Shown in pieces: positions 1 through 27,488 of a DNA stretch of 28,765 bases. The notes under the pieces were generated by a model, which was not told where the DNA came from, did not search any database, and worked only from the letters and a program-made list of their open reading frames with translations. Each line of letters starts with the position of its first letter. Within the stretch, counting starts at the first letter, position 1. Position numbers and translations under genes: made by a program. The DNA comes from a virus, in IMG/VR virus record IMGVR_UViG_3300012582_000055, positions 1 to 28,765 of that record; one strand, given 5' to 3'.

Positions 1-929
1 ACACCAGCCTCCGATTGTCGAAACTGGGTCAAACGATGATGCAGGCGCGTCTGTTACGACACGGCAATCAATCGTCTTCCAATCTCCCTCATCGAGGTCG
101 GTGTCGCCCGGAACCTGCAACCAAACGCCAATCATTGCGTAGTTGCCGAACACGTACGTACGGTAGCCAATCTTGCCGCTACCGCTGTAGTTCGCGGTCG
201 TGGTTACGAACGGGGTTTGCATGAAGCCGATGTTGGTGCCCGGTAGGACAATGACCTTGTTCTGGTCGCTGCCTGCCATTGCATCAAACTTCTCCATGTT
301 TTCGTACTTCCACAAATCAGCGATTGAGTTGTTCACTGTCGTTGAATTGTAGATGTCGCCCAACACGTTCGGGCTGATTGCGCCCAAGAACATGCCACGC
401 TTGCATGGCAACACGTTCTTTGAAACAAGCTGCTGCTTCAATTCACGGATGGTGCCAAGGTCAAGAGTGAACGGAGATGCCAGCAATGATGACTGGTTAA
501 CCTGTGAGTCCACGGTTGACGCGCTATCTGCTACTGCGCTGTACAACTCGCTGATTGACTGCCCAGCTTGGTAGCCGAGTTCAACTGCGCTGTTGCCGAC
601 AAGTTCGTCAATCGCCGCTGCAATAGCGAACGATGAGAAGTTGGCGTAGTTGTTCCACTCGCCAATTTGTGCTGGCGATGACAACTGGCTGATGACTTCC
701 GGGTTTCCCACGGTACCATCAGAGTTCTGTACAACATCACCCGAAAGTGTATTGTATTGGAAGAACGTACGGTTTACGCCCATGTGCAGGCCCTGTACGC
801 GCTTCTCTGCTGCTCCAACGAATGCGTTGGTGTTGCCCTTCAAGTTCGGAATCAATTCCTTATCGAAAATGATTGCCTGTGCCGTTAGGACGTTTGCTAC
901 GTTTGATGCTGACGGGTTAGGTCCCGACA
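1..929 (-). CDS. Major capsid protein, N4-gp56-type (partial, 3' end outside window)
   Basis: The frame opens at an ATG at 929 and stays open for 309 codons to the left edge, so the C-terminus is missing. A GAGAG ribosome-binding site lies about 8 bases upstream. The residues around 95-135 (YANFSSF, then AIDELV, then ELGYQAG and SISELY) match the helix typical of N4-gp56 family capsid proteins, which form the HK97-like shell. The position directly after a scaffold-like gene, portal and terminase supports the call. Family assignment is from motif memory, not a search. Confidence 0.85.
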
Positions 930-2728: not shown

Positions 2729-4837
2729 TTATAGAGATGTATTTGCTCCAAAGCCTTGCGATTGCTCCGGACCTGTACCTAGTAGTGCAGGCTGTGTTGA
2801 CTTCTCAATAGAAGCACGGAAGGCTTCATTACCCGCCTTACCGAGTTGCTTCTGATTTTCCAGCGTCTGTTCTTGTTCGAACTTCGCTTGCTGTGCCTTT
2901 TGTGCCGACGCTGCCTGCGCTTGCTGCAAAGCCGCTGGGCTGTTGGCATCGTGCTTCTGTTTCTCTTCCGGAGTCATTTCACGTAAGAACTTTTGGCTGA
3001 ACTTCCAACCTGCTGCGTCCGTGAATGCTTGGAAGATAGCAACTGCATCGAACTGGTATCCGGCGTCATTGGCGTTTGCCACGAACGTCGGGTTGTTCAA
3101 AAGTTGAATCATGATTGGAAGAGCCTGTGCCATTTCTTTCTTGGCACCTAGACTTGCTCCCGCTAGAACTTCGTACTCGACCTTTGCATTACGAAGGGTG
3201 ATGTGGTCCATCTTGAAGTCATTGCCAATCTTCTCTCCGAGAATGTCCTTGATGACCGAAGTCGGCAACAGGTCGTTGTCGAGGTCGTCCATTTGGTACA
3301 ACCACGGTTCGAAGACCTGACGAACGAATCGTCCGGTTGGTCCATCGAGGCGGCTTGCGTTAGCTTGAATAACTGCTGCCGCACCTGTGCCGCTTCTCAT
3401 ACCCGTCGTGCTAATGCCTGCGTGTCCCGCACCTTGAACCACCTGCTCGTTTGCGCCTGACGTTGCCGCGCCCGCTGCCTGTGATTGCTGGATGAACTCA
3501 AATGCTTGCGGTGGTACCGGAGGCATTTGTAGGAACTTGAAAGCCTTCTCAACGTCTTCTTCAACGTCGATGATGCCGCCTTGCTCCCAACGCGTGTTTT
3601 GTGTCGGTGCGTTGAAGCCCTTCTTACGTAGCGCCACAGGTTGCAAACAGTAAGCTAGCAAGTCAAGAGCGAGGTTTGTTACACCTTGCTCGACAATTTG
3701 CTCGCTTCCGATTAGCAGTCCTAACCCCTGCCCGTAAAAGCTGTCGGGGATGTTTCGCCAATTAGCCGAGTAGAACGGAATCTTTCCGAACGGATTGGCT
3801 TCATTGCGAATTAAGATGCAGTGACCGTTGTAAATCAAAACAACGATAACCTTCTCGTTGTCCCAATACTCCAACAATTCGAGCGGCGCTCTATTCGGGT
3901 CTGCCGAAGTCTTATAGCTACGAGGCTTCGCGTGCTGCAAATAACCCATCATTCCTTCCGGAATGGTCATCGCAATATTGTCTGGTCCCGGAGAAGTTGC
4001 TTTCGCAAACATGGCGCGAAGAACATCTGATTCCGGAATTTGGTAACCCTCGACACCGCGTAAGTGGTCGAGGTCTTGATATGTCGCGTAGTCGCGGTAG
4101 ACAACCCATTTTGCTCTGCGGATATCACCGACGCGGCATCCCGGGTCTACAAGAACGGTGCGAATGTCGCAGTACTTCAACCACGGATGAGAAACCTTCT
4201 TCTTATAAAACTCTATTTCGAAGTCGTCTGAATCCGGCGTATCAATCGGCGCGACAGCGAGTCCTTCTGGTGCATTCACCTTCGGCGCGTAACGCTTGTA
4301 CTTCTTTTCGGTCTTATCGTATTCGGTGTAGCCCCACTTCCAGATAGCTGTGCCTAGAAGTGCCATCTGCTCCAAACCGCGCTCGATTTCTTCCTCGAAA
4401 CGCATCGCTTGAAGTTGAAAAGTGAACAGTGCGGTCTTTGCGGAGATTACGTCCTGACTTGTGCCCGGACTTGGACGAAGCAGGAAGCACGGGTCTTCGT
4501 AGAAGATGCCGCCCATAATCTTTGGCACAATCGACGAAATGTGATTCGAAACCATGAACTTCGGCACTGCCGAGTTCGCAACATCAGTCCCGCCCGCAAC
4601 GTCATTCGTTGACATCGGTGACTGGTAGAGCAAGTCGCTCATGGTCCAGCCGGATGCCCACTGATTTACGTTGATGAAATTGTCGGCTAATTCTGTGTTG
4701 TCGAGAACGAGCTTAATCGCAGCCGTATCATTGAACTGAATTGTCCCAGTGTTCGAATCCACGTAGGTATTTTCCGGCGTGATTTCATTGGCTGGTAATT
4801 GTTCTAAACTGGCTATCTTTACGTCGATATCACTCAT
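2729..4837 (-). CDS. Portal protein (702 aa)
   Basis: The portal forms the dodecameric DNA gate at one capsid vertex. The length (about 700 residues), the position directly after terminase and the sequence character fit the long portals of podovirus and N4-like heads. The N-terminal half is a mixed alpha/beta stem and wing. Residues 368-400 (FYGQGLGLLIGSEQ onward) are the conserved glycine-rich stretch of such portals. The C-terminal 90 residues are Gln/Ala-rich and coiled. The ATG at 4837 overlaps the terminase stop as ATGA and has a GGAG site, so it is preferred over the upstream GTG at 4846. Residues 434-458 and 566-608 recur in two small proteins far upstream (25.0-26.2 kb). Confidence 0.85.
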   Translation of the reverse strand: MSDIDVKIASLEQLPANEITPENTYVDSNTGTIQFNDTAAIKLVLDNTELADNFINVNQWASGWTMSDLLYQSPMSTNDVAGGTDVANSAVPKFMVSNHISSIVPKIMGGIFYEDPCFLLRPSPGTSQDVISAKTALFTFQLQAMRFEEEIERGLEQMALLGTAIWKWGYTEYDKTEKKYKRYAPKVNAPEGLAVAPIDTPDSDDFEIEFYKKKVSHPWLKYCDIRTVLVDPGCRVGDIRRAKWVVYRDYATYQDLDHLRGVEGYQIPESDVLRAMFAKATSPGPDNIAMTIPEGMMGYLQHAKPRSYKTSADPNRAPLELLEYWDNEKVIVVLIYNGHCILIRNEANPFGKIPFYSANWRNIPDSFYGQGLGLLIGSEQIVEQGVTNLALDLLAYCLQPVALRKKGFNAPTQNTRWEQGGIIDVEEDVEKAFKFLQMPPVPPQAFEFIQQSQAAGAATSGANEQVVQGAGHAGISTTGMRSGTGAAAVIQANASRLDGPTGRFVRQVFEPWLYQMDDLDNDLLPTSVIKDILGEKIGNDFKMDHITLRNAKVEYEVLAGASLGAKKEMAQALPIMIQLLNNPTFVANANDAGYQFDAVAIFQAFTDAAGWKFSQKFLREMTPEEKQKHDANSPAALQQAQAASAQKAQQAKFEQEQTLENQKQLGKAGNEAFRASIEKSTQPALLGTGPEQSQGFGANTSL

Positions 4838-7140
4838 AGTCTCCACGGCCCTTTATTGCCGAAGATTTTCATCCTCGGGTCCTGCGGCTTCGGCGGCTCC
4901 TGTTCTATTGGCTCAGGTTGTTTCACTTCACCTGTCAGACGTTCTCTCCATGTTGGCGCTTGCCTACTTGGGGGTCCGGGATGAAGACGCGTGCCGCCAT
5001 ACTGATTTCCAAACATGCGGTCTTGCTGCATCTTTAAGAGATATCGTTTTTCGGCCTTCTCTTCCTCTTCGACTTTTTGACTCTCTTCCTGCGGAGTCAG
5101 TCTCATTCGCATGAACATCTCAGGAGGGAGTGTTCGAGAGGCTTGAGAAATAGCGTCCGGTATATCGTCCTTTCGACCCTTACGGGTCTCTCCGGTGAAT
5201 CGCTCAAATTGACGATATAACTCATCAATCCAAGGACCAGAAACAAAGTGCAAACGGTCGTCGTTAACTAATACTTCCAAAGTCTTGATACGGTTCGTCT
5301 TCTCGTTTAGGGTGTTTCCTGTTGCCACTTTACAAATGCTGTTGAGAACTTCCGGGCAATTATATTTCATTGCATACATACGAACCACAGCCATCAGAAG
5401 GTCAATTCCGTTACATGCTTCTATAAACGTGCGACTCGGTCTATGATGTCTTAAAAATCTGACGAAGTGTTCTGCGAGGTCAGTTGCTCTCCACTTATCA
5501 AAATCAATATCAACGACGATAAGTTCTTGAGTCCCGTCTTCGCGGATGTGGCGACGAATCGCAGCAAGCACACAATAATCTGAGCCTTTGTTATCCGTGT
5601 AAGCCCAATCAACGGTTACAATCAATTCTCCGGTAGTGGGGGCGGCAGAAAGAGCATAAGTTTTACGACGCAACGTCTCTTTCTCAAAGTGCGTTATTAA
5701 ATCGGTAACTTCTAGCGGGTCAGTGGCAATATTCAAGTATTGATTCTTGAAACCGCGCTCTTTGTATTCTTTCAACTTACTACGAAGCGCCTTCCAGTTC
5801 AACTTGTATGGAAACCACAACTCGACCATATTCTCGGTGATTTCGAAAATGCCGTTTCGCTTTTCCAAAAGCTGAGAATAAATAACTTGAAATTCTGGCT
5901 TTATTGTCCAGCATGACAGACATAGATACTTAAACGGCTCTGTAGAATTTATGTCATCTTCATCGGCAGATACTCCCATTCTCCAGCCGTACCAATCACT
6001 GGTAAAATAGCGAGTACCAATTATGTCGGTGAATCCCCACGACTCTACGAGTGCATTGGTGGACTTCACTCTCTCTTTCAATTTTTCGCGCAGTTCTTCA
6101 TCTGCTGAATTCTTGTCTTCGACGATATCATCCAGCTTTCGAATGTCGCATCGCTGTCCGACGAAGGACGAATCCAATGACGTAATCCAGACGTGTGGCT
6201 CCTTCGAATCGAACAACTGAGCCGGACAAATAATGGGTTGTTCTGAACGACCGTCGATGCCTGTCAGAATATACTCCGGAAAGAGCATCTGAAACGCGGA
6301 CGGCTTTCCGCGAGCAGGCAGATAAAAATACTGTTTTACTTCGCTCATCAACTGATTAGACAAACTTTTAACGGATGTCATAATCATGACGCGAATATCG
6401 GGACAGTTTAGCATCCACTGCACGGTATCTAAACCATCGATTGTTGACTTATATCCTGAGCGGGGGGCAAACAACATTAGTGTGCGCGTCTCGGAACCAT
6501 CTTCCGCGAAACGTTGCTGCTTACCAATCATTTCGTGTACGTCATCGAATGTGCAGTCTGGGAAATACATCCCATCAAAATTCTTTTGTACGAAGGCATC
6601 ACAAACCATTTGATGGGTGCCGTGAAACAGACCCTTCCCCAACAGACGCCCTAGCCAAAATAGGTCTTTACGTGCTTTGTCGCGCAAGTCGAGCCAATCA
6701 ATAAACGAAACAACTCGGTCAATTTCGTATGTTTTTCTGTGCTCAAGGCTGTTAGGGTCGATATTTTTATCGCCAATTTTAATCGCACGAATCTGAGTCT
6801 TTTGGCCGACTGGCACCGGAAGATTATTTTTCTTCTTCCCTGTTTTAGTATCTATAGCCTGTGGGTCTTCGTCGCCCACAACCGTGATAGCGCCGCCTTC
6901 ATAGATAGCGAGCAACTGCACAGCACTGCGGCATTCGCTCTTATAAAAATGACCGCTACTATCCATCTCAAATGCCCAAGCAAGATTGTCGTGATGCTCT
7001 TTCTCTCGAAGGCTCTTTTCAGCGTCTTCTACTAAAAGACTGGTAACTGAATAGGGTTCTGGCATCCCCTTATCGCGAGCACGTTTGTTTGCTTGTCTGC
7101 GGCGGGCCGCTTCTTTTGATTGGTCAGCCGTTGGCGACAT
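4834..7140 (-). CDS. Terminase large subunit (768 aa)
   Basis: This is the packaging motor. The ATPase half shows a Walker A variant at residues 225-232 (APRSGYKS) and a Walker B-like LDDIVED at about 336-342. The nuclease half has RNase H-fold acids: Asp511 in VTVDWAY, Glu573 in TFIEACNG and Asp658/659/662 in KDDIPDAIS. The N-terminal 220 residues precede the ATPase core, and the Pro-rich C-terminus may contact portal. The length is on the long side for TerL. The ATG has an ACGGAG site five bases upstream. The stop overlaps the portal start by four bases, which implies translational coupling. No small terminase subunit is recognised nearby. Confidence 0.92.
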   Translation of the reverse strand: MSPTADQSKEAARRRQANKRARDKGMPEPYSVTSLLVEDAEKSLREKEHHDNLAWAFEMDSSGHFYKSECRSAVQLLAIYEGGAITVVGDEDPQAIDTKTGKKKNNLPVPVGQKTQIRAIKIGDKNIDPNSLEHRKTYEIDRVVSFIDWLDLRDKARKDLFWLGRLLGKGLFHGTHQMVCDAFVQKNFDGMYFPDCTFDDVHEMIGKQQRFAEDGSETRTLMLFAPRSGYKSTIDGLDTVQWMLNCPDIRVMIMTSVKSLSNQLMSEVKQYFYLPARGKPSAFQMLFPEYILTGIDGRSEQPIICPAQLFDSKEPHVWITSLDSSFVGQRCDIRKLDDIVEDKNSADEELREKLKERVKSTNALVESWGFTDIIGTRYFTSDWYGWRMGVSADEDDINSTEPFKYLCLSCWTIKPEFQVIYSQLLEKRNGIFEITENMVELWFPYKLNWKALRSKLKEYKERGFKNQYLNIATDPLEVTDLITHFEKETLRRKTYALSAAPTTGELIVTVDWAYTDNKGSDYCVLAAIRRHIREDGTQELIVVDIDFDKWRATDLAEHFVRFLRHHRPSRTFIEACNGIDLLMAVVRMYAMKYNCPEVLNSICKVATGNTLNEKTNRIKTLEVLVNDDRLHFVSGPWIDELYRQFERFTGETRKGRKDDIPDAISQASRTLPPEMFMRMRLTPQEESQKVEEEEKAEKRYLLKMQQDRMFGNQYGGTRLHPGPPSRQAPTWRERLTGEVKQPEPIEQEPPKPQDPRMKIFGNKGPWRL

Positions 7141-18617: not shown

Positions 18618-18625
18618 CCGGAAAC

Positions 18626-18796: not shown

Positions 18797-18801
18797 AAAA
18801 T

Positions 18802-18875: not shown

Positions 18876-18883
18876 TCAGAAAA

Positions 18884-18974: not shown

Positions 18975-18976
18975 AT

Positions 18977-19050: not shown

Positions 19051-19058
19051 ATTGAAAC

Positions 19059-19356: not shown

Positions 19357-19371
19357 GTGTCACCCAAAAAT

Positions 19372-19445
19372 TGGTAGCCAATGAAGGACTCGAACCTTCA
19401 TTTCCCGCTAATCAGGCAGGCGTCTTGCCGTTATACCAATCGGCT
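19372..19445 (-). tRNA. tRNA-Ile (anticodon GAT)
   Basis: The loop CTGATTA in stem CCTGC/GCGGG reads ATC/ATT. Acceptor AGCCGAT with ATTGGCT (G-U at 5-68), A73, CCA encoded. Confidence 0.92.
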
Positions 19446-19451
19446 ACAAAA

Positions 19452-19814: not shown

Positions 19815-19867
19815 GGTGTTAACCTCCGTAGGTTTACCTAATACATGTCATGTTATCTCCTTGAAAT

Positions 19868-19941
19868 TGGTGGACCATGAGGGAATCGAACCCTCAACAC
19901 CTCGGTGCAAGCGAGGTAGTATCCCGTTTACCTAACGGCCC
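19868..19941 (-). tRNA. tRNA-Ala (anticodon TGC)
   Basis: The loop CTTGCAC in stem CCTCG/CGAGG reads GCN. Acceptor GGGCCGT with ATGGTCC; the usual alanine G3-U70 pair is present. A73, CCA encoded. Confidence 0.93.
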
Positions 19942-19950
19942 AAAACTTGT

Positions 19951-19999
19951 GTCAACCTTTTTCGGCTGACTTTCACAAAATCAACCTCTTTAGGCTGAC
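19951..19999 (-). repeat. Two tandem 20-nt stem-loops
   Basis: Two copies about 30 bases apart (19951-19970 and 19981-19999) fold as GTCAGCC, a six-base A-rich loop, then GGTTGAC or GGTTGAT. Loops differ (GAAAAA, TAAAGA) while stems are kept. They fill the spacer between tRNA-Ala and tRNA-Glu(TTC). Confidence 0.6.
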
Positions 20000-20007
20000 T
20001 CGAAACT

Positions 20008-20083
20008 TGGCAGAGCTAATCGGATTCGAACCGATGTGAGCACCTTGAAAGGGTGCCATCCTAGGCCACTAGATGATAACTCC
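20008..20083 (-). tRNA. tRNA-Glu (anticodon TTC)
   Basis: The loop CTTTCAA in stem GCACC/GGTGC reads GAA/GAG. Acceptor GGAGTTA with TAGCTCT, G73, CCA encoded. Confidence 0.93.
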
Positions 20084-20092
20084 ACTGAAACT

Positions 20093-20166
20093 TGGTACCC
20101 GTAGGCGGATTCGAACCGCCGTTACTTCCGTGAGAGGGAAGCGTCCTGCCGCTAAACGATATGGGC
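20093..20166 (-). tRNA. tRNA-Glu (anticodon CTC)
   Basis: The loop CTCTCAC in stem CTTCC/GGAAG reads GAG. Acceptor GCCCATA with TACGGGT has an A-C mismatch at 5-68. A73, CCA encoded. Confidence 0.9.
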
Positions 20167-20176
20167 ACTGAAAAAT

Positions 20177-20267
20177 TGGTTGTCGGCTTCGGATTCGAAC
20201 CGAACAGCAACGCTAATCTAGCGCGAAGGCTTTATAAGAGCCTGCTCCGAACCGTTCGGAACCGACA
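20177..20267 (-). tRNA. tRNA-Ile (anticodon TAT), class II-shaped
   Basis: The loop CTTATAA in stem AGGCT/AGCCT reads ATA. Acceptor TGTCGGT with GCCGACA, A73, CCA encoded. A perfect five-pair variable arm (CGCTA/TAGCG) and an unusual D-arm make it 91 bases, quite unlike normal isoleucine tRNAs. Charging identity is therefore uncertain. Confidence 0.82.
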
Positions 20268-20273
20268 AAAATC

Positions 20274-20362
20274 TGGGAACCCAGGGGTCATTCACCCCCG
20301 CCATCCTACGAGTCCGGTACCGGATATCGTAAGCGTTCACTCTACCGCGAACTGCGTCCCCA
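20274..20362 (-). other. Cloverleaf tRNA-like RNA without CCA (89 nt)
   Basis: Seven-pair outer stem TGGGGAC/GTTCCCA; D-like arm GTTC/GAAC with a GG-containing loop; anticodon-position stem TACGA/TCGTA whose 15-base loop contains the palindrome TCCGGTACCGGA; T-position arm GGGG/CCCC with loop TGAATGA. It is followed by GATTTTT instead of a discriminator plus CCA. Confidence 0.5.
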
Positions 20363-20369
20363 CAGAAAT

Positions 20370-20445
20370 TGGTACCCAATGAGTGAATCGAACACTCCCG
20401 GTCTCGGTGTAAGCGAGATGCATACGACCAGTTTGCTAATCGGGT
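20370..20445 (-). tRNA. tRNA-Val (anticodon TAC)
   Basis: The loop CTTACAC in stem TCTCG/CGAGA reads GTN. Acceptor ACCCGAT with ATTGGGT, A73, CCA encoded. Only valine tRNA seen. Confidence 0.92.
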
Positions 20446-20459
20446 ACAGAAAATTGTGC

Positions 20460-20526
20460 CTTCCCTAGTAAGTTCAACAGACCGAGAAGGTCTTGCCACG
20501 GATATCTGCTCGTTTACTCGCCGTGG
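20460..20526 (-). other. Two hairpins in long tRNA spacer
   Basis: Minus strand: CCACGG/CCGTGG with a 19-base loop, then AGACC-TTCTC-GGTCT. The segment lies between tRNA-Lys(TTT) and tRNA-Val and has no ORF or T-loop. Identity unknown. Confidence 0.35.
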
Positions 20527-20533
20527 TAAAAAT

Positions 20534-20608
20534 TGGTCGGTCGCCAGAGATTCGAACTCTGACCCCATCGCTTAAAAGGCGAGTATGCAACCTTAACACT
20601 TGCAACCG
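20534..20608 (-). tRNA. tRNA-Lys (anticodon TTT)
   Basis: The loop CTTTTAA reads AAA/AAG. Acceptor CGGTTGC with GCGACCG, T-loop TTCGAAT, A73, CCA encoded. Confidence 0.92.
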
Positions 20609-20617
20609 ACTGAAAAT

Positions 20618-20693
20618 TGGTGGACTGCCCGGGACTTGAACCCGGAACACGTTCCTTAAGAGGGAAGTATGTTGCCGCTAACACCTGCGGTCC
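20618..20693 (-). tRNA. tRNA-Lys (anticodon CTT)
   Basis: The loop CTCTTAA in stem TTCC/GGAA reads AAG. Acceptor GGACCGC with GCAGTCC has a C-A mismatch at 5-68. A73, CCA encoded. It follows the RNase P RNA by eight bases. Confidence 0.92.
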
Positions 20694-20701
20694 ACTGAAA
20701 C

Positions 20702-21027
20702 TTTTTCTGGTCGCGCTGTAGCCCGGTTTCTGTCGAGGACGAACATTCCTCTAAGCCTTCTACCCGGCTCTCATCGCGCTCAACAAACGCTCAAGCCCTA
20801 TTTGAAGTTGCACCTGTGTGGAGTGCCTTCGCTCGAATGAATCCGGAAATTACCCGGAAGAATCCGGAACTTCCGGAATACGAAGCCTTACCCGTGCGAT
20901 TACTCGCCCCGCAACTTCCACGGCACAGTGTTGAGATGTGACCGGAACTTCCTCCATACCCATATAGCGGTTGATTACGATGTAATCTGCCGCTATAACG
21001 GTACAGCGTTCGTCTACGCTACCAAAA
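20702..21027 (-). ncRNA. rnpB: RNase P RNA, bacterial A-type-like (about 326 nt)
   Basis: RNase P RNA is the catalytic RNA that cuts tRNA precursors at the mature 5' end. Both universal signatures are present: GAGGAAGTTCCGG (20942-20954) corresponds to the 5' core GAGGAAAGUCCGG, and GACAGAAACCGGGCTACA (20717-20734) to the 3' core GACAGAAnCCGGCUUA. TCCGGT and ACCGGG from these form helix P4. P2 is a perfect seven-pair GACGAAC/GTTCGTC, P1 pairs GGTAGCG with CGCGACC, and P3 is a long hairpin (TATAGCGG and GATTAC arms). CAAATAGGGCTTGAGCG and GCCGGGTAGAAGGCTTAGAG match the P15-P18-side segments of the E. coli RNA. It sits between tRNA-Lys(CTT) and tRNA-Cys in the same orientation, presumably cotranscribed. 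Ends are approximate. Confidence 0.93.
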
Positions 21028-21028
21028 T

Positions 21029-21172
21029 GTGGGGCTTAACTTTTCGTTAGTAAGCCTCTGAAAGAAACGACCCGGCTTGCCAGACTATGCTGGGGCCGAG
21101 AAACTTTTCGAAACCTTACGTGGCGGCACTATCATGCGCTTATGGGGCTGGATACCCCCGCTGGGGTTTCGA
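21029..21172 (-). other. Structured spacer between RNase P RNA and tRNA-Cys
   Basis: A 63-base element (21109-21171) is closed by a perfect seven-pair stem CGAAACC/GGTTTCG and contains a GGGG/CCCC hairpin and a GTG/CAC hairpin; it is followed by AAAAGTTTC. The rest (21029-21100) holds a GGCTT/AAGCC stem with inner AAC/GTT pairing. No ORF, T-loop or CCA. Confidence 0.4.
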
Positions 21173-21175
21173 ACT

Positions 21176-21249
21176 TGGAGCACTGTGTTGGAATCGAACC
21201 AACGATGACTGTTTTGCAGACAGGTAGCTTACCACTTGCCTAACAGTGC
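21176..21249 (-). tRNA. tRNA-Cys (anticodon GCA)
   Basis: The loop CTGCAAA reads TGC/TGT. Acceptor GCACTGT pairs ACAGTGC perfectly. T73, the cysteine discriminator, CCA encoded. The tRNA immediately upstream of the RNase P RNA. Confidence 0.94.
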
Positions 21250-21284
21250 GAATCTCCGACGCGGTTTCCCGCGCCTTTGTCAAT

Positions 21285-21368
21285 TGGTACGCGCCGAGGG
21301 AATCGGACCCTCATGACTTTCGTCGGGGCGTTTTAAGTGCCCTGCGTATGCCTTTCCGCCACGCGCGT
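21285..21368 (-). tRNA. tRNA-Leu (anticodon TAA)
   Basis: Class II. The loop CTTAAAA reads TTA/TTG; stem GGGCA/CGCCC has an A-C pair next to the loop. The T-loop is TCCGATT (second T to C). Acceptor CGCGC paired, A73, CCA encoded. Confidence 0.88.
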
Positions 21369-21373
21369 AAATT

Positions 21374-21460
21374 TGGTCGCCCACACAGGAGTTGAACCTG
21401 TACGCCCTCTCGGGCGGCGGGTTTTGAATCCGCTGCGTCTGCCAGTTCCGCCAGCAGGCG
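21374..21460 (-). tRNA. tRNA-Leu (anticodon CAA)
   Basis: Class II. The loop TTCAAAA reads TTG. Acceptor CGCCTGC with GTGGGCG, variable arm GCCC-GAGA-GGGC, A73, CCA encoded. It shares the A-C closing mismatch of the anticodon stem with Leu(TAA). Confidence 0.92.
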
Positions 21461-21462
21461 AT

Positions 21463-21537
21463 TGGTAGCCCATGAAGGACTCGAACCTTCATCGCTCGGT
21501 TCGTAGCCGAGCATCCTATCCATTGAACGAACAGGCC
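21463..21537 (-). tRNA. tRNA-Arg (anticodon ACG)
   Basis: The loop CTACGAA in stem CTCGG/CCGAG; A34 would need deamination to inosine to read CGT/CGC/CGA. Acceptor GGCCTGT with ATGGGCT, A73, CCA encoded. Only two bases separate it from tRNA-Leu(CAA). Confidence 0.92.
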
Positions 21538-21547
21538 ACTGTAAAAT

Positions 21548-21622
21548 TGGAGGTCCCACTCGGATTCGAACCGAGATAGCTGCCTTAGAAGTGCAGCGTC
21601 CTATCCGTTGAACGACAGGACC
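21548..21622 (-). tRNA. tRNA-Arg (anticodon TCT)
   Basis: The loop CTTCTAA reads AGA/AGG. Acceptor GGTCCTG with TGGGACC, T73, CCA encoded. Its 5' end abuts the stop codon of the 33-aa zinc mini-gene. Confidence 0.93.
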
Positions 21623-21724
21623 TTAAACTTTTCCCGTCCCCTTGCAGTTCGTGCACGAGCGTTGTCGCCCCCACGGGTCACACGGACCCAACTTCGAACC
21701 ATTGCAATTAGGACAGACTTTCAT
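21623..21724 (-). CDS. 33-aa double-CxxC mini-protein
   Basis: An ATG at 21724 forms part of the spacer after tRNA-Leu(TAG), as CCA-ATTTT-ATG, and opens 33 codons. Two zinc-binding pairs, CPNCNG and CTNCKGTGKV, copy the CxxCxGxG style of DnaJ zinc fingers in miniature. The stop touches the first base of tRNA-Arg(TCT). There is no Shine-Dalgarno, so translation would be leaderless after tRNA processing. Confidence 0.5.
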   Translation of the reverse strand: MKVCPNCNGSKLGPCDPWGRQRSCTNCKGTGKV

Positions 21725-21729
21725 AAAAT

Positions 21730-21813
21730 TGGTGCCGCGCGAGGGACTCGAACCCCCACTCCCGAAGGAACTAGTTTCTAAAACTAGCGCGTCTGCCATT
21801 CCACCAGCACGGC
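21730..21813 (-). tRNA. tRNA-Leu (anticodon TAG)
   Basis: Class II. The loop TTTAGAA in stem CTAGT/ACTAG reads CTN. Acceptor GCCGTGC with GCGCGGC, variable arm TCC-TTCG-GGA, A73, CCA encoded. Confidence 0.93.
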
Positions 21814-21856
21814 ACAGAAAACTTTGCGGATGTTAATAAACGAGTAGAAGTTAAAT

Positions 21857-21941
21857 GTGGAATCCATCCGCCAACCCACAAGATACTCTTGCTCGTTATT
21901 CTTAGAACTTGCCGGACGCTCTACCGTGGAGCTACATCCAC
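21857..21941 (-). other. tRNA-like element with canonical D-arm, no CCA
   Basis: Outer stem GTGGA/TCCAC, TA at positions 8-9 and a perfect D-arm (GCTC, CACGGTA, GAGC) look like a tRNA 5' half. The remainder has a CAAGA/TCTTG hairpin and no recognisable anticodon arm or TTC loop. TCCAC is followed by ATTTAAC. Decayed tRNA or tRNA-like RNA. Confidence 0.4.
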
Positions 21942-21979
21942 TTCCTCGCGCCGCATACACGGCTCACTCGCGAAGTTGC

Positions 21980-22068
21980 GTGGAGTCGGGATTCGAACCC
22001 GAACCTTCCGGCTCTTCCGCCTGCCAGTTATTCATGCAGGACTTAATCACCTTGGGCTGACACTGGTG
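21980..22068 (-). other. tRNA-like element with canonical T-arm
   Basis: The T-arm TCGGG-TTCGAAT-CCCGA is perfect, preceded by a GC-rich arm and a CCTGC/GCAGG stem with an 11-base loop, as in a distorted class II tRNA. No complementary 5' acceptor is found and CCA is absent (CTCCACGCAA). Probably a tRNA remnant. Confidence 0.4.
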
Positions 22069-22414
22069 GTTCCCGTCGAGCGGCTTTCAGGTAGCGGTCA
22101 CCGCGCTGCTCGACTTGATGTCGTCGCGGGACCATCGCTTTGCCATCACAATAAATTCTCTGTAATGGACTTAAATCCGAGGAACTATTTATCAACGCGC
22201 GGTTCCCGGACGCGCCTTGGGTGAGTATCACCTCACCGTGTGCCTTCTGACCCTTTACCAGCTAGCGAGTCTGCTGTCGGGGGCGACCCGAAGCATTGCG
22301 GCACTGTTGCAACATCTTTTTGACTGACAGGGCGGTGGCATACGGCGGAACTTTCAGCATTGTTCCTTCCGCTGTCCTTCGCTTTGGCCTACGCTGACAG
22401 TAGGTCAGTCAAAA
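22067..22414 (-). ncRNA. Large structured RNA region of unknown identity (about 350 nt)
   Basis: No convincing ORF is present, but helices follow each other closely. An 11-pair stem TTTTGACTGAC/GTCAGTCAAAA (22404-22414 with 22317-22327) encloses a 98-base unit. Further hairpins are GGTGAG/CTCACC (22220-22237), GCGCG/CGCGC (22197-22215), and an eight-pair CCATTACA/TGTGATGG (22143-22168). TGGTCCC/GGGAACCA encloses GTCGAGC/GCTCGAC (22067-22134). It is flanked by tRNA-Pro(CGG) and a tRNA remnant on the same strand. It may be one RNA or several. Confidence 0.5.
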
Positions 22415-22416
22415 CT

Positions 22417-22494
22417 TGGTCGGGAAAGCAGGATTTGAACCTGCGGTCTCTTCTTTCCGAAAGAAGCGGGAACTCCAGACTTCCCTACTTCCCG
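22417..22494 (-). tRNA. tRNA-Pro (anticodon CGG)
   Basis: The loop TTCGGAA in stem CTTCT/AGAAG reads CCG. Acceptor CGGGAAG with TTTCCCG, A73, CCA encoded. Its TAG at positions 8-10 acts as the stop codon of the HNH 3 frame. Confidence 0.92.
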
Positions 22495-22844
22495 ACAGTA
22501 AAATTGGCTGGGGCAGCAGGACTCGAACCTGCAATGCGCTTACGCGCTGGGTGGGTAACAGCCACCTGCTGTACCAATTGAGCCACACCCCAGTAGATTT
22601 CATCCTCGACTTCCGCGTGACAATTCGCACAAAGCAAATCACACTTGTCGAGTTCGGCTCTAATCTTTTCCCAACTTCTAGTTGAAGAAATAGATAGACC
22701 GAATAATTTTGTTTTCGGGTCTCGATGATGAAACGTAAGTGCTCGAAAGCACTTTGCGTATCCGCATCGCCCACATTTCCCGCCGAGATATTCGACGGCG
22801 CGCCGCTTCGTTCTACGACGCCATTCTATCACTTTATTATTCAT
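22485..22844 (-). CDS. HNH endonuclease 3, frame running through tRNA-Asn
   Basis: The ATG at 22844 has AAGGTGAG upstream. The first 85 residues form a compact HNH protein: basic N-terminus, CGRCGY zinc pair, catalytic-type FHHRDP with paired histidines, and LLCANCHAEVE with the second cysteine pair. No stop follows; the frame continues through the whole of tRNA-Asn and ends at the TAG inside tRNA-Pro(CGG), adding about 33 residues encoded by tRNA sequence. Either the original stop was lost or the tail is tolerated. It is probably a homing nuclease. Confidence 0.78.
   Translation of the reverse strand: MNNKVIEWRRRTKRRAVEYLGGKCGRCGYAKCFRALTFHHRDPKTKLFGLSISSTRSWEKIRAELDKCDLLCANCHAEVEDEIYWGVAQLVQQVAVTHPARKRIAGSSPAAPANFTVGK
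22505..22592 (-). tRNA. tRNA-Asn (anticodon GTT), class II-shaped
   Basis: The loop CTGTTAC in stem GGTGG/CCACC reads AAC/AAT. Acceptor TGGGGTG with TGCCCCA, G73, CCA encoded. The 17-base variable region forms GCGC-GTAA-GCGC, abnormal for asparagine. The whole gene is overlapped by the HNH 3 frame. Confidence 0.85.
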
Positions 22845-22856
22845 CAGACTCACCTT

Positions 22857-22935
22857 TTGGTGGTCTAATGGTAAGACTGACAGCCACTCGGTTTGAGTCC
22901 GAGAACTTTTACTACCCGGGCGTTACTCCGGTAAA
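22857..22935. other. Ambiguous tRNA-like spacer (D-arm on plus strand)
   Basis: On the plus strand GTCT-AATGGTA-AGAC is a perfect D-arm and CTCGG-TTTGAGT-CCGAG an anticodon- or T-arm-like hairpin. On the minus strand the block CCGGAGTAACGCCCGG resembles the odd T-arm of the degenerate tRNA at 16049-16122. TTTTAC/GTAAAA closes one end. It lies between tRNA-Asp and the HNH 3 ribosome site. Orientation is uncertain. Confidence 0.3.
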
Positions 22936-22937
22936 AT

Positions 22938-23014
22938 TGGCGCGACTGACGGGATTCGAACCCGTGATTTCTCCCGTGACAGGGGAGTGTCGTGGGCCGC
23001 TAGACCACAATCGC
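22938..23014 (-). tRNA. tRNA-Asp (anticodon GTC)
   Basis: The loop CTGTCAC in stem CTCCC/GGGAG reads GAC/GAT. Acceptor GCGATTG with CAGTCGC, G73 as usual for aspartate, CCA encoded. Confidence 0.93.
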
Positions 23015-23025
23015 GCGGAAAATTT

Positions 23026-23122
23026 GGGCTTTTCGAAGAGCAACCGTTACCCACCTTGCGGCGAATAAGCCCGTGGATGCTCTGCCCCGAGTGTCCTTCC
23101 CACCGGACAGGGTGGCTCGGTT
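23026..23122 (-). ncRNA. Structured spacer with pseudoknot potential
   Basis: Two six-pair helices interleave: GGGCTT/AAGCCC (23067-23072 with 23026-23031) and AGAGCA/TGCTCT (23078-23083 with 23037-23042), the arrangement of an H-type pseudoknot. Upstream lies CCGAG/CTCGG enclosing CCACC/GGTGG. No ORF or tRNA signature between tRNA-Pro(TGG) and tRNA-Asp. Confidence 0.45.
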
Positions 23123-23129
23123 TGAAACT

Positions 23130-23208
23130 TGGTCGAGGAACCAGGATTCGAACCTGGGGTCTCATGCTTCCAAAGCACGCGGGAACGGCCAAACTTCCCC
23201 ATTCCTCG
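23130..23208 (-). tRNA. tRNA-Pro (anticodon TGG)
   Basis: The loop TTTGGAA reads CCN. Acceptor CGAGGAA pairs TTCCTCG perfectly, T-arm CCAGG/CCTGG, A73, CCA encoded. Confidence 0.93.
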
Positions 23209-23216
23209 AAAAACTC

Positions 23217-23276
23217 TTACACCAGACAATCCGGTACTTCGATAACTTCGTCGTCGATTGGCTCTGGGTCAATCAT
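23217..23276 (-). CDS. Possible 19-aa acidic peptide
   Basis: An ATG at 23276 opens 19 codons (MIDPEPIDDEVIEVPDCLV) ending nine bases before tRNA-Pro(TGG). AGGGG lies 10 bases upstream, at the base of a hairpin. Too short to judge; listed because an ATGA overlap joins it to an even shorter frame upstream. Confidence 0.3.
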   Translation of the reverse strand: MIDPEPIDDEVIEVPDCLV

Positions 23277-23285
23277 AAATTTGTG

Positions 23286-23342
23286 CCCCTATCCCTCGCG
23301 GGCGCTGGATAGGCTTGGCGGTCACTATTCTGGGGCGACCCC
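23286..23342 (-). other. Double hairpin upstream of the 19-aa frame
   Basis: Minus strand: GGGG-TCG-CCCC, then CCTATCC/GGATAGG with a 12-base GC-rich loop, ending beside the AGGGG of the 19-aa frame. It could be a translation control element or another small RNA of the locus. Confidence 0.4.
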
Positions 23343-23366
23343 AATGCCATGACAGGCGCGTTATCG

Positions 23367-23435
23367 TTAATCCGAAATCTCGATGAAACCTTCATGCCCA
23401 TCCGCGATTGTGAAACCGCTGTCGTGTTCTTTCAT
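23367..23435 (-). CDS. Possible 22-aa peptide
   Basis: The ATG at 23435 has AAAGG seven bases upstream. The initiation region GGTTTCACGATGAA is repeated exactly before the 53-aa gene. The product MKEHDSGFTIADGHEGFIEI is acidic. The repeated start region suggests duplication of a translation signal. Confidence 0.4.
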   Translation of the reverse strand: MKEHDSGFTIADGHEGFIEISD

Positions 23436-23445
23436 CGTGAAACCT

Positions 23446-23607
23446 TTATCCTTCGAACGTGTCGCGAGTGACGATGACTCCGTCGAACCCGCCTTCGGTG
23501 ATGCCACGACATTCCCAGCCATCGAATCCGATGCTGCCGCCGAAGTTCACAGTGTAGATGCCGGGTGAAATCGTTGTTGCTCGACCCAAACTCTCTGTGT
23601 CCTTCAT
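23446..23607 (-). CDS. Small protein with leaderless-type start (53 aa)
   Basis: The ATG at 23607 follows the -10 box of a strong promoter by nine bases, so the mRNA would carry only a few bases of leader. The product is Gly-rich and beta-like with one Cys (NFGGSIGFDGWECRGITEGG inside it). It is followed 10 bases later by the 22-aa frame with the same start context. Function unknown. Confidence 0.55.
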   Translation of the reverse strand: MKDTESLGRATTISPGIYTVNFGGSIGFDGWECRGITEGGFDGVIVTRDTFEG

Positions 23608-23616
23608 CGTGAAACC

Positions 23617-23645
23617 ATCCTAGCACATCTTGCAAACTTTGTCAA
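23617..23645 (-). promoter_or_regulatory. Sigma70-like promoter P1
   Basis: TTGACA (23640-23645) and TAGGAT (23617-23622) are separated by 17 bases, with TGTGC just before the -10. It points at the 53-aa gene, whose ATG lies nine bases beyond the -10. Confidence 0.82.
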
Positions 23646-23659
23646 GCACTTTCTTTGAA

Positions 23660-23729
23660 AATTTTCGGGGCAGTTTTGGCTCGTGCTAGCTGCCCCTGTA
23701 GGAGGTGCTGCGTAAGCTACTGCGATTCG
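23660..23729 (-). ncRNA. Possible small RNA from promoter P2
   Basis: Promoter P2 would start RNA near 23729. About 33 bases later comes a strong hairpin, GGGGCAG/CTGCCCC (23667-23696), followed by GAAAATTTTC, a weak U-run. No ORF of note lies between. It may be a short RNA of about 65 nt or a leader ahead of P1. Confidence 0.4.
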
Positions 23730-23735
23730 AGGACC

Positions 23736-23764
23736 ATGCTACCACAGTTCCCGAATTTTGTCAA
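23736..23764 (-). promoter_or_regulatory. Sigma70-like promoter P2
   Basis: TTGACA (23759-23764), 17-base spacer, TAGCAT (23736-23741), with CTGTGG directly before the -10, the same extension as promoter P3. Confidence 0.82.
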
Positions 23765-23773
23765 GCGAAATCT

Positions 23774-24058
23774 TTAGACGCCCGGATAGTGATGCGCGAA
23801 CTTCGGAGTCGCTGGCTGGTCACCGTGCTTACCAACCTCTTCCTTGCTCGACGGAAGACCCTTGTGCGAGCCGTTGGCGCTTACGCCCAACGAGTTCGAA
23901 CGTCCGGCCTTCAATGAGGCGTGGTCGTGCGAAGCATCCGAAACCTTCTCGGCCTTCGGTACTGCGCGACCCGGATACTTGTGTGCATGCGGCTGGTCGC
24001 CACTCTGCGCTTTTTCCGGTGCATGAGCCTGCGATGCTGCTGTGGTGTTTTCTGACAT
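23774..24058 (-). CDS. Polar, disordered small protein (94 aa)
   Basis: The ATG has GAGGT eight bases upstream. The product is rich in Ala, Ser, His, Lys and Pro, with no hydrophobic core, and is probably disordered. Histidine pairs occur near both ends. It lies between tRNA-His and promoter P2, downstream of promoter P3. No family recognised. Confidence 0.6.
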   Translation of the reverse strand: MSENTTAASQAHAPEKAQSGDQPHAHKYPGRAVPKAEKVSDASHDHASLKAGRSNSLGVSANGSHKGLPSSKEEVGKHGDQPATPKFAHHYPGV

Positions 24059-24087
24059 CTGAATTACCTCTGTACGTCTCTAAATTT

Positions 24088-24162
24088 TGGGGTGAAGAGC
24101 GGGAATCGAACCCTGCGCCGAGGGATTCACAGTCCCCCGTGCTACCATTACACCATCGACAC
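24088..24162 (-). tRNA. tRNA-His (anticodon GTG)
   Basis: The loop CTGTGAA reads CAC/CAT. C73 and a G at position -1 (24163) are the histidine identity marks. Acceptor GTGTCGA against TCTTCAC has mismatches at 4-69 and 5-68, and the T-stem is weakened at its base. CCA encoded. First tRNA after promoter P3. Confidence 0.87.
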
Positions 24163-24658: not shown

Positions 24659-24844
24659 TTACTTTTGCGGAATGTGCTCCACGAGCCTTCCGCCCGTGAG
24701 AGATGCCGGGTCCTTCCCGCGCATGATGGCGCGCATGGAAGCTCCCTTGTATTCGTAAACTCTGTGGCCGTCCGGGTTTTCAAATTTGATGCGGACGGTG
24801 TTGTTGTCGATTTTCTCTTTCGACAGAATGTTTTTCTTGCTCAT
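24659..24844 (-). CDS. Small basic protein (61 aa), unknown
   Basis: The ATG at 24844 overlaps the previous stop as ATGA and follows GCAAGG. The product begins with a Lys-rich stretch, then a beta-like segment (TVRIKFENPDGHRVYEY), then a basic helix (MRAIMRG). Possibly nucleic-acid binding; no family recognised. Confidence 0.6.
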   Translation of the reverse strand: MSKKNILSKEKIDNNTVRIKFENPDGHRVYEYKGASMRAIMRGKDPASLTGGRLVEHIPQK

Positions 24845-25056
24845 GCCTTGCTCGTGCAAGCGTAGGAGAATAGCGTTCTAGCTAAACTCTGAACCTGCGA
24901 TGGAGTCAATGTTATGTTGACGGTCTCTCCACAAGAGCCATCGTTCTTCGCTTCACCGCGAACGGTGATTACGAGATTCTGATGCTCATCGACGTTGAGA
25001 GACAAATACTCCGGATAGCTGCTACTCGGAGCAGTGTATGCGAATACGTTATTCAC
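24841..25056 (-). CDS. Small beta-rich protein (71 aa), GTG start
   Basis: GTG at 25056, with AAAAGG six bases upstream, is the best start; the longer frame to 25167 would lie inside the neighbour. The start overlaps the stop of the 61-aa portal-like gene. The product has alternating beta residues (LNVDEHQNLVITVRGE) and a C-terminal helix with SQVQSLARTLF. Function unknown. Confidence 0.6.
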   Translation of the reverse strand: MNNVFAYTAPSSSYPEYLSLNVDEHQNLVITVRGEAKNDGSCGETVNITLTPSQVQSLARTLFSYACTSKA

Positions 25057-25234
25057 TGGAAACCTTTTCAGCCGCTCGCTGTGCCCGATTGATAAATTCA
25101 AACACCTCAACGGGAAGCGGCGGCATCGGAAGGAAGTCAATCGAAGAATCAGCTTCCCACATCTCATCAGACCAATTCATCGGGTCTTGTTGTCGAAGAA
25201 GAACTTCGGCAACGCGACTCGCGCTCGGTTCCAT
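25049..25234 (-). CDS. 61-aa protein resembling a portal segment
   Basis: Residues 33-56 (FLPMPPLPVEVFEFINRAQ onward) align without gaps to portal residues 435-458 (FLQMPPVPPQAFEFIQQSQ onward), with about half the positions identical including the MPP-x-P and FEFI cores. The remaining N-terminal 30 residues are acidic and unrelated. Start TAATG is coupled to the upstream gene; no separate ribosome site. It could bind a portal partner or compete with portal in assembly, or be a remnant. Confidence 0.65.
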   Translation of the reverse strand: MEPSASRVAEVLLRQQDPMNWSDEMWEADSSIDFLPMPPLPVEVFEFINRAQRAAEKVSSE

Positions 25235-25446
25235 TACTGGGCTGGCGCTAGGCCAACTGCTGGCGCTACCGCTTCTACAACAGCGGATTCAGCCACGGCT
25301 GGTGCGGCCACGGATACGGCAGCGGCTACATCAAGTGGTGCGGCGCGAAGAATGATTCGTGCTGCCAAAATCTTTTCGTAGTCCGATAGTCCGCCCTCAG
25401 CTTCTGGCGTTTCGAGTACCTTGAGTGCTTCGTCTACTGCGCTCAT
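25234..25446 (-). CDS. Ala/Val-rich small protein (70 aa)
   Basis: The ATG at 25446, with GGAG seven bases upstream, is preferred to the in-frame ATG at 25458, which lies within the neighbouring gene. The N-terminal 40 residues are helical and charged; the last 30 are an Ala/Val/Pro run like the linker of the scaffold-like protein. Function unknown. Confidence 0.6.
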   Translation of the reverse strand: MSAVDEALKVLETPEAEGGLSDYEKILAARIILRAAPLDVAAAVSVAAPAVAESAVVEAVAPAVGLAPAQ

Positions 25447-25447
25447 C

Positions 25448-25861
25448 TTAATCTCCATTCAGACCGTTATTCAATGCGGTCACTCGCGGGATGTTGTTCC
25501 AATTTCGGTCGAGCATATCGCTGGCATTCACCTTGACAACGGTGTGCTCATGCGGCTCGATGAAGCGAACCTCTGTGCCCCATTCAATCTTAACAAGGTG
25601 GTCACCGAGATTTTGGAAAATGAAAATCTGTCTATAATCGCTCGGGTCCATCTGGACCGTACACTGCACTCCTGCTTCCGAACAATAAGTGTTGAACTGG
25701 CGCGTCATGTACTTGCCAGCATCGGCGGATACGTGAAGTCTGCTGAGTGCTTGTCGATTCTCTGTTGGTTGTGCTAGAGGTCGTGGTGCTGCCTCTTGTG
25801 GGCGGCGCGGCACGATGGCTTCGTACAACACCTTCAAAAAGTTCTTAGCGGTGCCGCTCAT
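25448..25861 (-). CDS. Unknown protein (137 aa)
   Basis: The start overlaps the previous stop as ATGA. The N-terminal 45 residues are basic and Pro-rich. The C-terminal 85 look like a small beta-rich domain (CTVQMDPSDYRQIFIFQNLG and WGTEVRFIEPHEHTVVKV). Two cysteines occur at residues 59 and 66. No family is recognised. It is a full member of the coupled operon. Confidence 0.65.
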   Translation of the reverse strand: MSGTAKNFLKVLYEAIVPRRPQEAAPRPLAQPTENRQALSRLHVSADAGKYMTRQFNTYCSEAGVQCTVQMDPSDYRQIFIFQNLGDHLVKIEWGTEVRFIEPHEHTVVKVNASDMLDRNWNNIPRVTALNNGLNGD

Positions 25862-26142
25862 GCGAATGCTCTCGCGTGAAGGTCTGCAATACTACGGCCT
25901 GCGGCTGCACCCAACTCATCAGCAGCTTGTGCCACAATTGAATCCATCGCCGCTATTAAAGCGAAGTCACTGAAACTTGAATAATCTGCGTACTGCTCCA
26001 CTAAGTGAGGCATGAATGGAGTATATGGCGCTATTTCTTTTGCCACGCACTCGGGTCCCATCACGGTCGATAGGCTTGGGGCGACTGCGGCCCCGGCTAT
26101 CCCCACCCCTAGCCATTTGAAAAACTTGCGGCGATTCATCAT
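25858..26142 (-). CDS. Tat-signal protein with a capsid-like segment (94 aa)
   Basis: The N-terminus MMNRRKFFKWLGVGIAGAAV has a twin-arginine motif (NRRKFFK) and a hydrophobic core, predicting folded export through the Tat system. Residues 47-90 (LVEQYADYSSFSDFALIAAM onward, then DELGAAAGRSIADL) follow the conserved helix of N4-gp56 capsid proteins and resemble this phage's capsid (YANFSSF...ELGYQAGQSISEL). Exporting a capsid-like helix makes little sense for head building, so this could be a signal-bearing fusion, a decoy or a chance arginine pair. Starts and stops overlap both neighbours. Confidence 0.62.
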   Translation of the reverse strand: MMNRRKFFKWLGVGIAGAAVAPSLSTVMGPECVAKEIAPYTPFMPHLVEQYADYSSFSDFALIAAMDSIVAQAADELGAAAGRSIADLHARAFA

Positions 26143-26813
26143 GTCTCGGTAATCGCTTTTAGAATAGCTGCTGGATTGAATGCATGACCCGCCTTGACTA
26201 CGTACTTTGTGAATGACGGGTTATTCATCAATTCCAAAACGAGAGGATAAGCCTTTTTCAGTTCTGCGCGGGCATTCGCTTTTTCTAATTCTTGTACGCG
26301 ACGGTCGAGGTCTGCGGTTACGTCGTAGACACCCGCTAACTTCGAGTTCACGGTTTGTTGGTCAATGGCGCTTGGTCCGACCTTTGCAAGAGCAACTTGA
26401 CTCTCGACTTGACCTACGCGTTCGTTAAGGCGCTGGATGGTCTTCAACAGACTTTCCACGTCTTGGCGAACTTGGTCGAATCCTTTCTGGGTCGAATCAC
26501 GGAGATTCGTCAACGATTGAACGTTATTCTGGTCGCGAAGCGTTTGACGGCCTTCGCGGTCCTCTGCCTCTTTCTTCAACTTATCGATGCTTTCGCCTTG
26601 ATAAATCAATGCTAGGTGCGCACGTTCTGCTTTCTCTTTAGCCTCGACTGCGATGCCTACTGCTCTCTCAGCTTTGAGACGAACCTCGTCGCGGAGTGCG
26701 GCGACAGCATCGGTGTTCTGACGCGTCTGACGCGCAACATTCACCAAGCGGTCAGAGAACTTGTCGAGCAAAGTTGCGACCTTGCTCAGAATCTGGGACT
26801 TCGTATTTGACAT
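26139..26813 (-). CDS. Coiled-coil protein with portal-like C-terminus (224 aa)
   Basis: Residues 5-180 are charged heptad-like helices with many Gln, Arg, Glu and Lys, predicting a long coiled coil. The last 40 residues (KKAYPLVLELMNNPSFTKYV onward) align to portal residues 566-605 (KKEMAQALPIMIQLLNNPTF onward), sharing L-x-NNP-x-F, AG and F-x-x-x-AI. AAGGAAG precedes the ATG. It may bridge portal and another component. The name is descriptive only. Confidence 0.7.
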   Translation of the reverse strand: MSNTKSQILSKVATLLDKFSDRLVNVARQTRQNTDAVAALRDEVRLKAERAVGIAVEAKEKAERAHLALIYQGESIDKLKKEAEDREGRQTLRDQNNVQSLTNLRDSTQKGFDQVRQDVESLLKTIQRLNERVGQVESQVALAKVGPSAIDQQTVNSKLAGVYDVTADLDRRVQELEKANARAELKKAYPLVLELMNNPSFTKYVVKAGHAFNPAAILKAITET

Positions 26814-26825: not shown

Positions 26826-27488
26826 TTACTTTCCGCGTTTGCGGGATTGGGTCTTTCTCTTTCGAATCTTCTTTAGTTGTACCGGGGTGCTATTTGAAGG
26901 CACCACCGTTGCGGTTGCTTTTCGCTTCTTGATGCGAGCGTATGCTGCGTGGATGTCGCGCTCCACTTCTGACTCTGGAGCTTCTTTCGGGTCTGGATGC
27001 GGAAATACGCCACCGAGAATCGGGTCGCCCGATTTAATGCGCCCACTTTCTAGTCCAAAATTTAGTACATTTAGAAATACGTCGGTCGATTCTCTAACAC
27101 GACGGCGGTATTCGTCCGAATAAGTCGGCACGGGTCCTGGGTCGCCTCTCTTGCTGAACCATTCTGAGGAAGCCTTGGTATTAGTGCTGGGAAGGTCGTA
27201 CAGTTCATTGTATGCGGATATCAATTCCTTCTGGTCGCTGCGAATCTTCAAACCACAATTGTAGAGGCATTTGATTTCTGTAACGCCATCAGGGAATGTG
27301 AAGATGCTGAGATTGTAATCTTTCGAGGCGGCAGTAAGTCCGCGCGACCGCCCACCACCTTTAAGATGGTTGCAGGGGTAGCGTAACTTGCTCTTGAATA
27401 ATTGAAGCACGCTCGCAAGGGTGTACTTCCCCGGAACAAGTTTGTTCAACTGCTCAACGAGGAATTGCTCGACTGTCTGTACTTCCAT
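26826..27488 (-). CDS. Unknown basic-tailed protein (220 aa), first gene of the operon
   Basis: The N-terminal 110 residues appear globular (alpha/beta) with two cysteines (CLYNC near residue 75). The middle is Pro/Ser-rich. The last 40 residues are strongly basic (KKIRKRKTQSRKRGK), suited to nucleic-acid binding. AAGGA precedes the ATG, and a perfect seven-pair hairpin lies just ahead of that site. No family is recognised. Confidence 0.65.
   Translation of the reverse strand: MEVQTVEQFLVEQLNKLVPGKYTLASVLQLFKSKLRYPCNHLKGGGRSRGLTAASKDYNLSIFTFPDGVTEIKCLYNCGLKIRSDQKELISAYNELYDLPSTNTKASSEWFSKRGDPGPVPTYSDEYRRRVRESTDVFLNVLNFGLESGRIKSGDPILGGVFPHPDPKEAPESEVERDIHAAYARIKKRKATATVVPSNSTPVQLKKIRKRKTQSRKRGK

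Follow-up and report, generated by a model that had tools for sequence, protein, structure and literature searches.

The small-gene operon of a 28.8-kb viral contig (the window, by which we mean the whole stretch of DNA analysed) encodes three short proteins that share segments with the phage's own head proteins, one of them headed by a putative signal for the twin-arginine (Tat) pathway. The locus may be read as a set of self-mimics, i.e., small accessory proteins that would carry pieces of the phage's own capsid and portal proteins and, elsewhere, of the terminase nuclease, some of them apparently tagged for Tat. We infer, with a probability of about 35%, that these mimics are decoys engaging host factors that recognise head proteins.

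Results

Layout of the window

The structural block occupies the low end of the window, where the large terminase (TerL), the portal protein, a scaffold-like protein and the 5' part of the major capsid protein (MCP) gene lie on the minus strand, and the operon occupies the high end (Table 1). Most operon genes overlap, several by just 1–20 bases, so the gene of the 94-residue protein very probably shares one transcript with its neighbours. The zinc-knuckle-like stretch of the first operon gene recurs in relatives in a protein whose gene directly follows MCP; the motif C-x-H-x-KGG ... C-x-x-CG is shared by the window protein and the product of L136:6593–7174, which is likewise encoded after MCP. 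Among cultured phages no DNA-level relative of the operon was found, and a search of viral contigs with p26139 alone returned no close relative of this coiled-coil protein.

The window also holds 32 tRNA genes on one strand (15794–24162, −), covering most amino acids and interspersed with HNH-like and other small ORFs. In the structural block, the nearby ORFs 11420 and 12136 are similar to each other (E 1e-8 in the all-against-all comparison of window proteins).

Table 1. Features of the window discussed in the text.
Feature	Position	Strand
Major capsid protein (MCP), 5' part; gene truncated by the contig end	1..930	-
Mimicked MCP stretch, residues 86-132	535..675	-
Portal protein; two stretches mimicked	2729..4846	-
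Portal stretch mimicked by p26139, residues 567-610	3017..3148	-
Portal stretch mimicked by p25049, residues 430-463	3458..3559	-
66-aa operon ORF, downstream	24659..24859	-
108-aa operon ORF, downstream, overlapping	24841..25167	-
p25049, 61-aa protein, C-terminal part portal-like	25049..25234	-
Portal-like segment of p25049, residues 27-59	25058..25156	-
74-aa alanine-rich operon protein, between mimics	25234..25458	-
137-aa operon protein	25448..25861	-
94-aa protein: Tat-like signal and MCP spine-helix-like C-terminal part	25858..26142	-
MCP-like segment, residues 45-90 of the 94-aa protein	25873..26010	-
Tat-like signal, residues 1-24 of the 94-aa protein (NRRKFFK and hydrophobic core)	26071..26142	-
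p26139, 224-aa predicted coiled-coil protein; 4-base overlap with the Tat gene	26139..26813	-
Portal-like segment of p26139, residues 181-223	26145..26273	-
Operon first gene, 220 aa; C-H/C-C zinc-knuckle-like stretch	26826..27488	-

The 94-residue protein joins a Tat-like signal to a piece of MCP

The open reading frame was confirmed, and its product reads MMNRRKFFKWLGVGIAGAAVAPSLSTVMGPECV...VEQYADYSSFSDFALIAAMDSIVAQAADELGAAAGRSIADLHARAFA. When all window proteins are compared with each other, residues 5–90 match the phage's own MCP (E 1.6e-10), with residues 45–90 aligned to MCP residues 85–131, the start of the MCP long helix. Because composition correction was off in this comparison, 2000 shuffle controls were run for each of the three mimics: the 94-residue protein scores 101 against MCP, compared with 37 for the next best protein of the window, and 0/2000 shuffles reach 101 (maximum 51). 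The profile of the Tat-protein family matches the MCP profile with 97.9% probability over 52 columns (E 4.3e-13). By sequence comparison, then, the C-terminal part is homologous to the start of the long helix of the phage's own MCP.

The sequence-only reading had assigned residues 47–90 to an N4-gp56 capsid helix, and a capsid profile match was its own test of this. The helix stands as a homologue of the phage's own MCP, but the public capsid profiles (Pfam, PHROGs and NCBIfam) give no match to the 94-residue protein, and of the MCPs only that of the distant Tunturi_3 matches the N4-gp56 model, below its cut-off. The capsid link therefore rests on the comparison with the phage's own protein, and in substance the profile match is obtained with an MCP profile made from relatives (E 3.9e-10). 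The likeness to N4-gp56 type (HK97-fold) capsid proteins is confined to the aligned helix; at 94 residues, with a Tat-like signal in front, the protein lacks the rest of the capsid fold and has neither the complete HK97 fold nor its length, the partial MCP segment alone being homologous. Structure prediction models a single helix well (residues 57–93) and the remainder with low confidence. For MCP itself, no solved structural homologue was found by sequence, and the predicted structure has a mean pLDDT of 27.6, so that the segments could not be placed on the fold.

The N-terminal part scores 20.9 bits on the Pfam TAT_signal profile (E 3.3e-4), narrowly missing the curated cut-off of 22.7 bits; single Tat proteins of relatives score 14.9–22.0 bits, also below the cut-off. 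NRR[KS]F[FL] opens 9/9 aligned homologues, in which the RR pair and N-R-R-x-F are invariant, and the hydrophobic core is typical; the protein has both the arginine pair and the core of a Tat substrate. The Tat-like signal that had been read from NRRKFFK plus a hydrophobic core is borne out, and homologues lacking the RR pair, which were to speak against it, did not appear. Export through Tat is probable, and only probable because the single proteins score just under the curated cut-off.

Two neighbours resemble the portal protein

The C-terminus of p26139 matches residues 568–610 of the phage's own portal (43 residues, E 5e-7), and p25049 matches portal residues 431–463 (33 residues, E 3e-6), with 0/2000 shuffles reaching the score in either case. 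These shared stretches are all that the two proteins have of the portal fold, and neither bears an export signal. The claim of two portal-like neighbours, and hence of three head-protein mimics in one operon, is upheld. In several relatives a member of this coiled-coil gene family again precedes the Tat/MCP gene, and mimicry reaches far beyond the operon.

The mimicry recurs in related genomes

A portal-guided search gave 71 related loci, and the reading covered 27 genomes or fragments (group 1). They encode 10 distinct Tat proteins, 9 of which bear the MCP helix. That of G029, the tenth, instead carries a strand-like MCP piece, YRTYVMGEQAVIA, similar to MCP 256–267, plus a C-terminal MCP piece; the MCP helix is found there in the gene next to the Tat gene, fused to portal residues 412–462. 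The strand piece also precedes the helix in the Tat proteins of G003, G007/G030, G023 and G024, an order permuted relative to MCP. Relatives of the 137-residue operon protein in G030 and G011 carry a piece like MCP 46–63, as does a neighbouring ORF in G013. The two portal segments likewise recur in small proteins of related genomes: the piece from portal residues 566–610 is present in the window, G007/G030, G009, G012 and G016, with 61% identity to the phage's own portal in G009.

Searches with five MCP pieces (44–66, 86–132, 152–188, 250–271 and 304–341) were each paired with a reversed-sequence control. All five pieces give forward matches outside MCP at E ≤ 0.05, while the best reversed match for any piece has E 0.35. 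For a control of specificity, 51 gene families from the 27 genomes were taken, with a length of 180 residues or more and members in 5 genomes or more, and remote fragments of each were sought among small ORFs within the same genome. MCP yields 16 fragment matches in 13 genomes (a few being split MCP exons) and portal 6 in 5 genomes; the other families yield none or isolated fragments, except for the zinc-knuckle-like stretch shared by the first operon gene and the gene near MCP.

In G017 and G029 a GroES (Cpn10 E 2e-31 and 5e-32) adjoins a 94-residue protein whose C-terminus resembles that of MCP (L167:739–1332, −; L261:17175–17740, +).

A second phage group carries the signal on other head proteins

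A second group was reached by the Tat signal alone: the Tat alignment matched its proteins at residues 1–24 only, and a Tat-only query added more contigs. Here TerL and portal flank the Tat gene, and its signal is near-identical to that of group 1 and the best conserved part of the proteins within group 2. The 11 distinct Tat proteins comprise three fusions to the TerL nuclease, three to portal, three that are weakly decoration-like and two without similarity. The TerL fusions (G042, G038 and L245) have 35–38% identity to TerL (E 5e-35 and 6e-36), one match extending over 226 residues, and form one clade with support 97/97. Their first catalytic Asp is replaced by Q, E and E, and the third is lost (DDR to YMR, YVR and WVR), so that two of the three catalytic acids of the large terminase nuclease are gone. 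The portal fusions (G040, L244 and G037; E 4e-10) carry portal residues 406–461, which by alignment are the counterpart of a stretch mimicked in group 1. The decoration-like similarity in G035, G037 and G041 (16 columns, P 3.5e-5) is suggestive only.

Two group 2 TerL genes are enlarged by intein-like insertions, to 915 aa (L245:1–2748) and 1344 aa (L217, G035 25597–29631). An unrelated, AT-rich phage (G043) encodes a Tat-like protein beside TerL and another small protein (L233:9131–9511 and 7221–7610), each weakly like its own MCP; for the Tat protein the score is marginal (58, with a shuffle maximum of 54).

A cultured phage has such a gene

The nearest cultured relatives are the phages Tunturi_1, Tunturi_2 and Tunturi_3 (PMC11924767), of which Tunturi_1 was isolated on Tunturiibacter psychrotolerans X5P2 (PMC11924767). 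Tunturi_1 gp97 (59906–60217), annotated only as a hypothetical protein, consists of a Tat-like signal and, behind it, 52 residues that are homologous to residues 5–56 of its own MCP (40% identity; score 77, shuffle maximum 55), and Tunturi_2 has the same gene. Tunturi_3 encodes a 170-residue Tat-like protein (L074:42137–42649, −; NRVFFLYGPLA) with a faint, not significant likeness to MCP 46–63.

Age and origin of the mimics

The MCP mimics have a nucleotide identity of ~0.5 to their own MCP genes, and the shared residues are mostly in different codons; a recent DNA copy or an origin by homing at the site was rejected on these grounds. Synonymous sites are saturated and the amino acids of the MCP-like part change less than those of the linker (pN 0.38 vs 0.55), which indicates that the mimics are old and have been kept as proteins. 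For the mimics of G003, G023 and G024 the MCP of the distant Tunturi_3 gives a slightly better score than the phage's own MCP does, so that these mimics are not fresh copies. The portal mimics, by contrast, seem to follow their own portal, as judged from letters shared in two pairs, a small number (EAWQFI in both proteins of G029; VFEFI and AFEFI in the window).

In several relatives the MCP gene has interruptions that recur at the same codons (~30, 94, 120, 204, 273 and 315), suggesting several introns; the regions concerned are L188 (G016), L173 (G011), L165 (G024), L194–L195 (G022) and L286 (G010). Rfam gives no intron match in the MCP region of G016. An origin of the mimics at intron boundaries was considered and set aside, since the edges of the mimicked segments are off the intron sites.

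Discussion

How could such proteins work as decoys? The mimic would be bound in place of unassembled capsid, portal or terminase by the host factors that recognise these, and the Tat signal, belonging to a route for folded proteins, would hold the decoy, with or without a bound factor, at the inner membrane or beyond it, apart from genuine head assembly. The homology of the three operon proteins to the phage's own MCP and portal, the way in which these two families stand out among 51, and the five MCP segments found in small ORFs speak for decoys. The Tat fusions to portal and TerL in the second group, the loss of catalytic acids in the TerL mimics and the cultured gp97 would fit as well, and the mimicked set (MCP, portal and terminase) overlaps proteins that bacterial immunity is reported to sense. 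That close relatives attach one signal to different head proteins at a single locus, and that it occurs in some genomes only, looks more like an arms race than like a fixed assembly role. We rank decoys first because of this pattern and the overlap with immune-sensed proteins. Several points weigh against them. Tat export would take the decoy out of the cytoplasm, the usual site of head-protein sensing; a mimic of the trigger could activate the sensor instead of blocking it; two of the window mimics have no signal, and single Tat scores fall under the Pfam cut-off; and a GroES beside an MCP C-terminus mimic in two relatives points to capsid folding or assembly.

Close behind we place interference with assembly or its timing, in itself less likely than not. 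The sequence-only reading's idea of a system directed at head assembly, satellites or competing phages would belong here, as one reading among several. The mimics would occupy the partner surfaces of capsid, portal and terminase, either timing or nucleating the phage's own heads, perhaps tethered through Tat, or blocking rival phages and satellites. The pieces do derive from interacting head proteins, the nuclease-dead TerL mimics resemble dominant negatives, the group 2 gene sits between TerL and portal, and the phage GroES of G017 and G029 would have a place here. However, the mimicked protein differs between close relatives and whole segments are absent in many genomes, poisons would also harm the phage that carries them, and a cytoplasmic role leaves the Tat signal unexplained.

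Less likely again, the mimics may be products of recombination: partial duplications of head genes, perhaps seeded at intron or intein breaks, joined to other small genes and kept as generic helices or domains, with no mimicry involved. The six interrupted MCP codons and the enlarged TerL genes of L245 and G035 would provide such breaks, but the similarity is at the protein level with saturated synonymous change, the segment boundaries do not coincide with the intron positions, both phage groups took the same portal stretch and fragments concentrate in head genes. It is quite doubtful that the signal is the active part, for example by loading the Tat or lysis machinery, with the head fragment as passenger; its conservation in group 2 and its joining to varied C-terminal parts would be explained, whereas the MCP-like part in group 1 is more conserved than the linker, and portal and MCP mimics also exist without a signal. 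Chance resemblance of amphipathic helices, conceivable for segments as short as those of the window (33–50 residues), was ruled out by the shuffle (0/2000) and reversed-sequence controls, the latter without a strong match, and accords neither with recurrence in many genomes nor with the 226-residue TerL case.

Avs senses the terminase. CapRel and Lit/Gol sense MCP, a short MCP peptide being enough for Lit (PMC9712102), and SpbK and Avs4 sense portal (PMC12847820). The hallmark proteins recognised by these systems are those mimicked here. They are host sensors, however, whereas the mimics are phage proteins. SaPI/PICI and P4 elements encode proteins that interfere with capsids or packaging, and the SaPI proteins include paralogues of packaging genes. 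Like the Tai proteins (PMC11364771), they come from phages or mobile elements and redirect or block the assembly of phages, as the present mimics may do, but in our case the phage's own genome encodes multiple short pieces from more than one head protein, some of them Tat-tagged. The literature searched, with most subscription journals outside its coverage, yielded no description of phage proteins joining a Tat signal to head-protein pieces and no phage decoy built from head fragments; phage counter-measures built from pieces of sensed head proteins do not appear to be described.

It is plausible, at somewhat less than even odds, that soil acidobacteria are host to tailed phages with a modular arsenal: capsid, portal and terminase pieces, short or of domain length and catalytically dead, which are joined interchangeably to a Tat signal and serve as decoys or poisons against sensors in the host or against rival phages. 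If the mimics are decoys, they mark the recognised faces of head proteins and could help to identify the sensors; should they be brakes on assembly, they would represent a new form of interference. With Tunturi_1 gp97, a cultured phage carries such a gene, which makes the question testable now.
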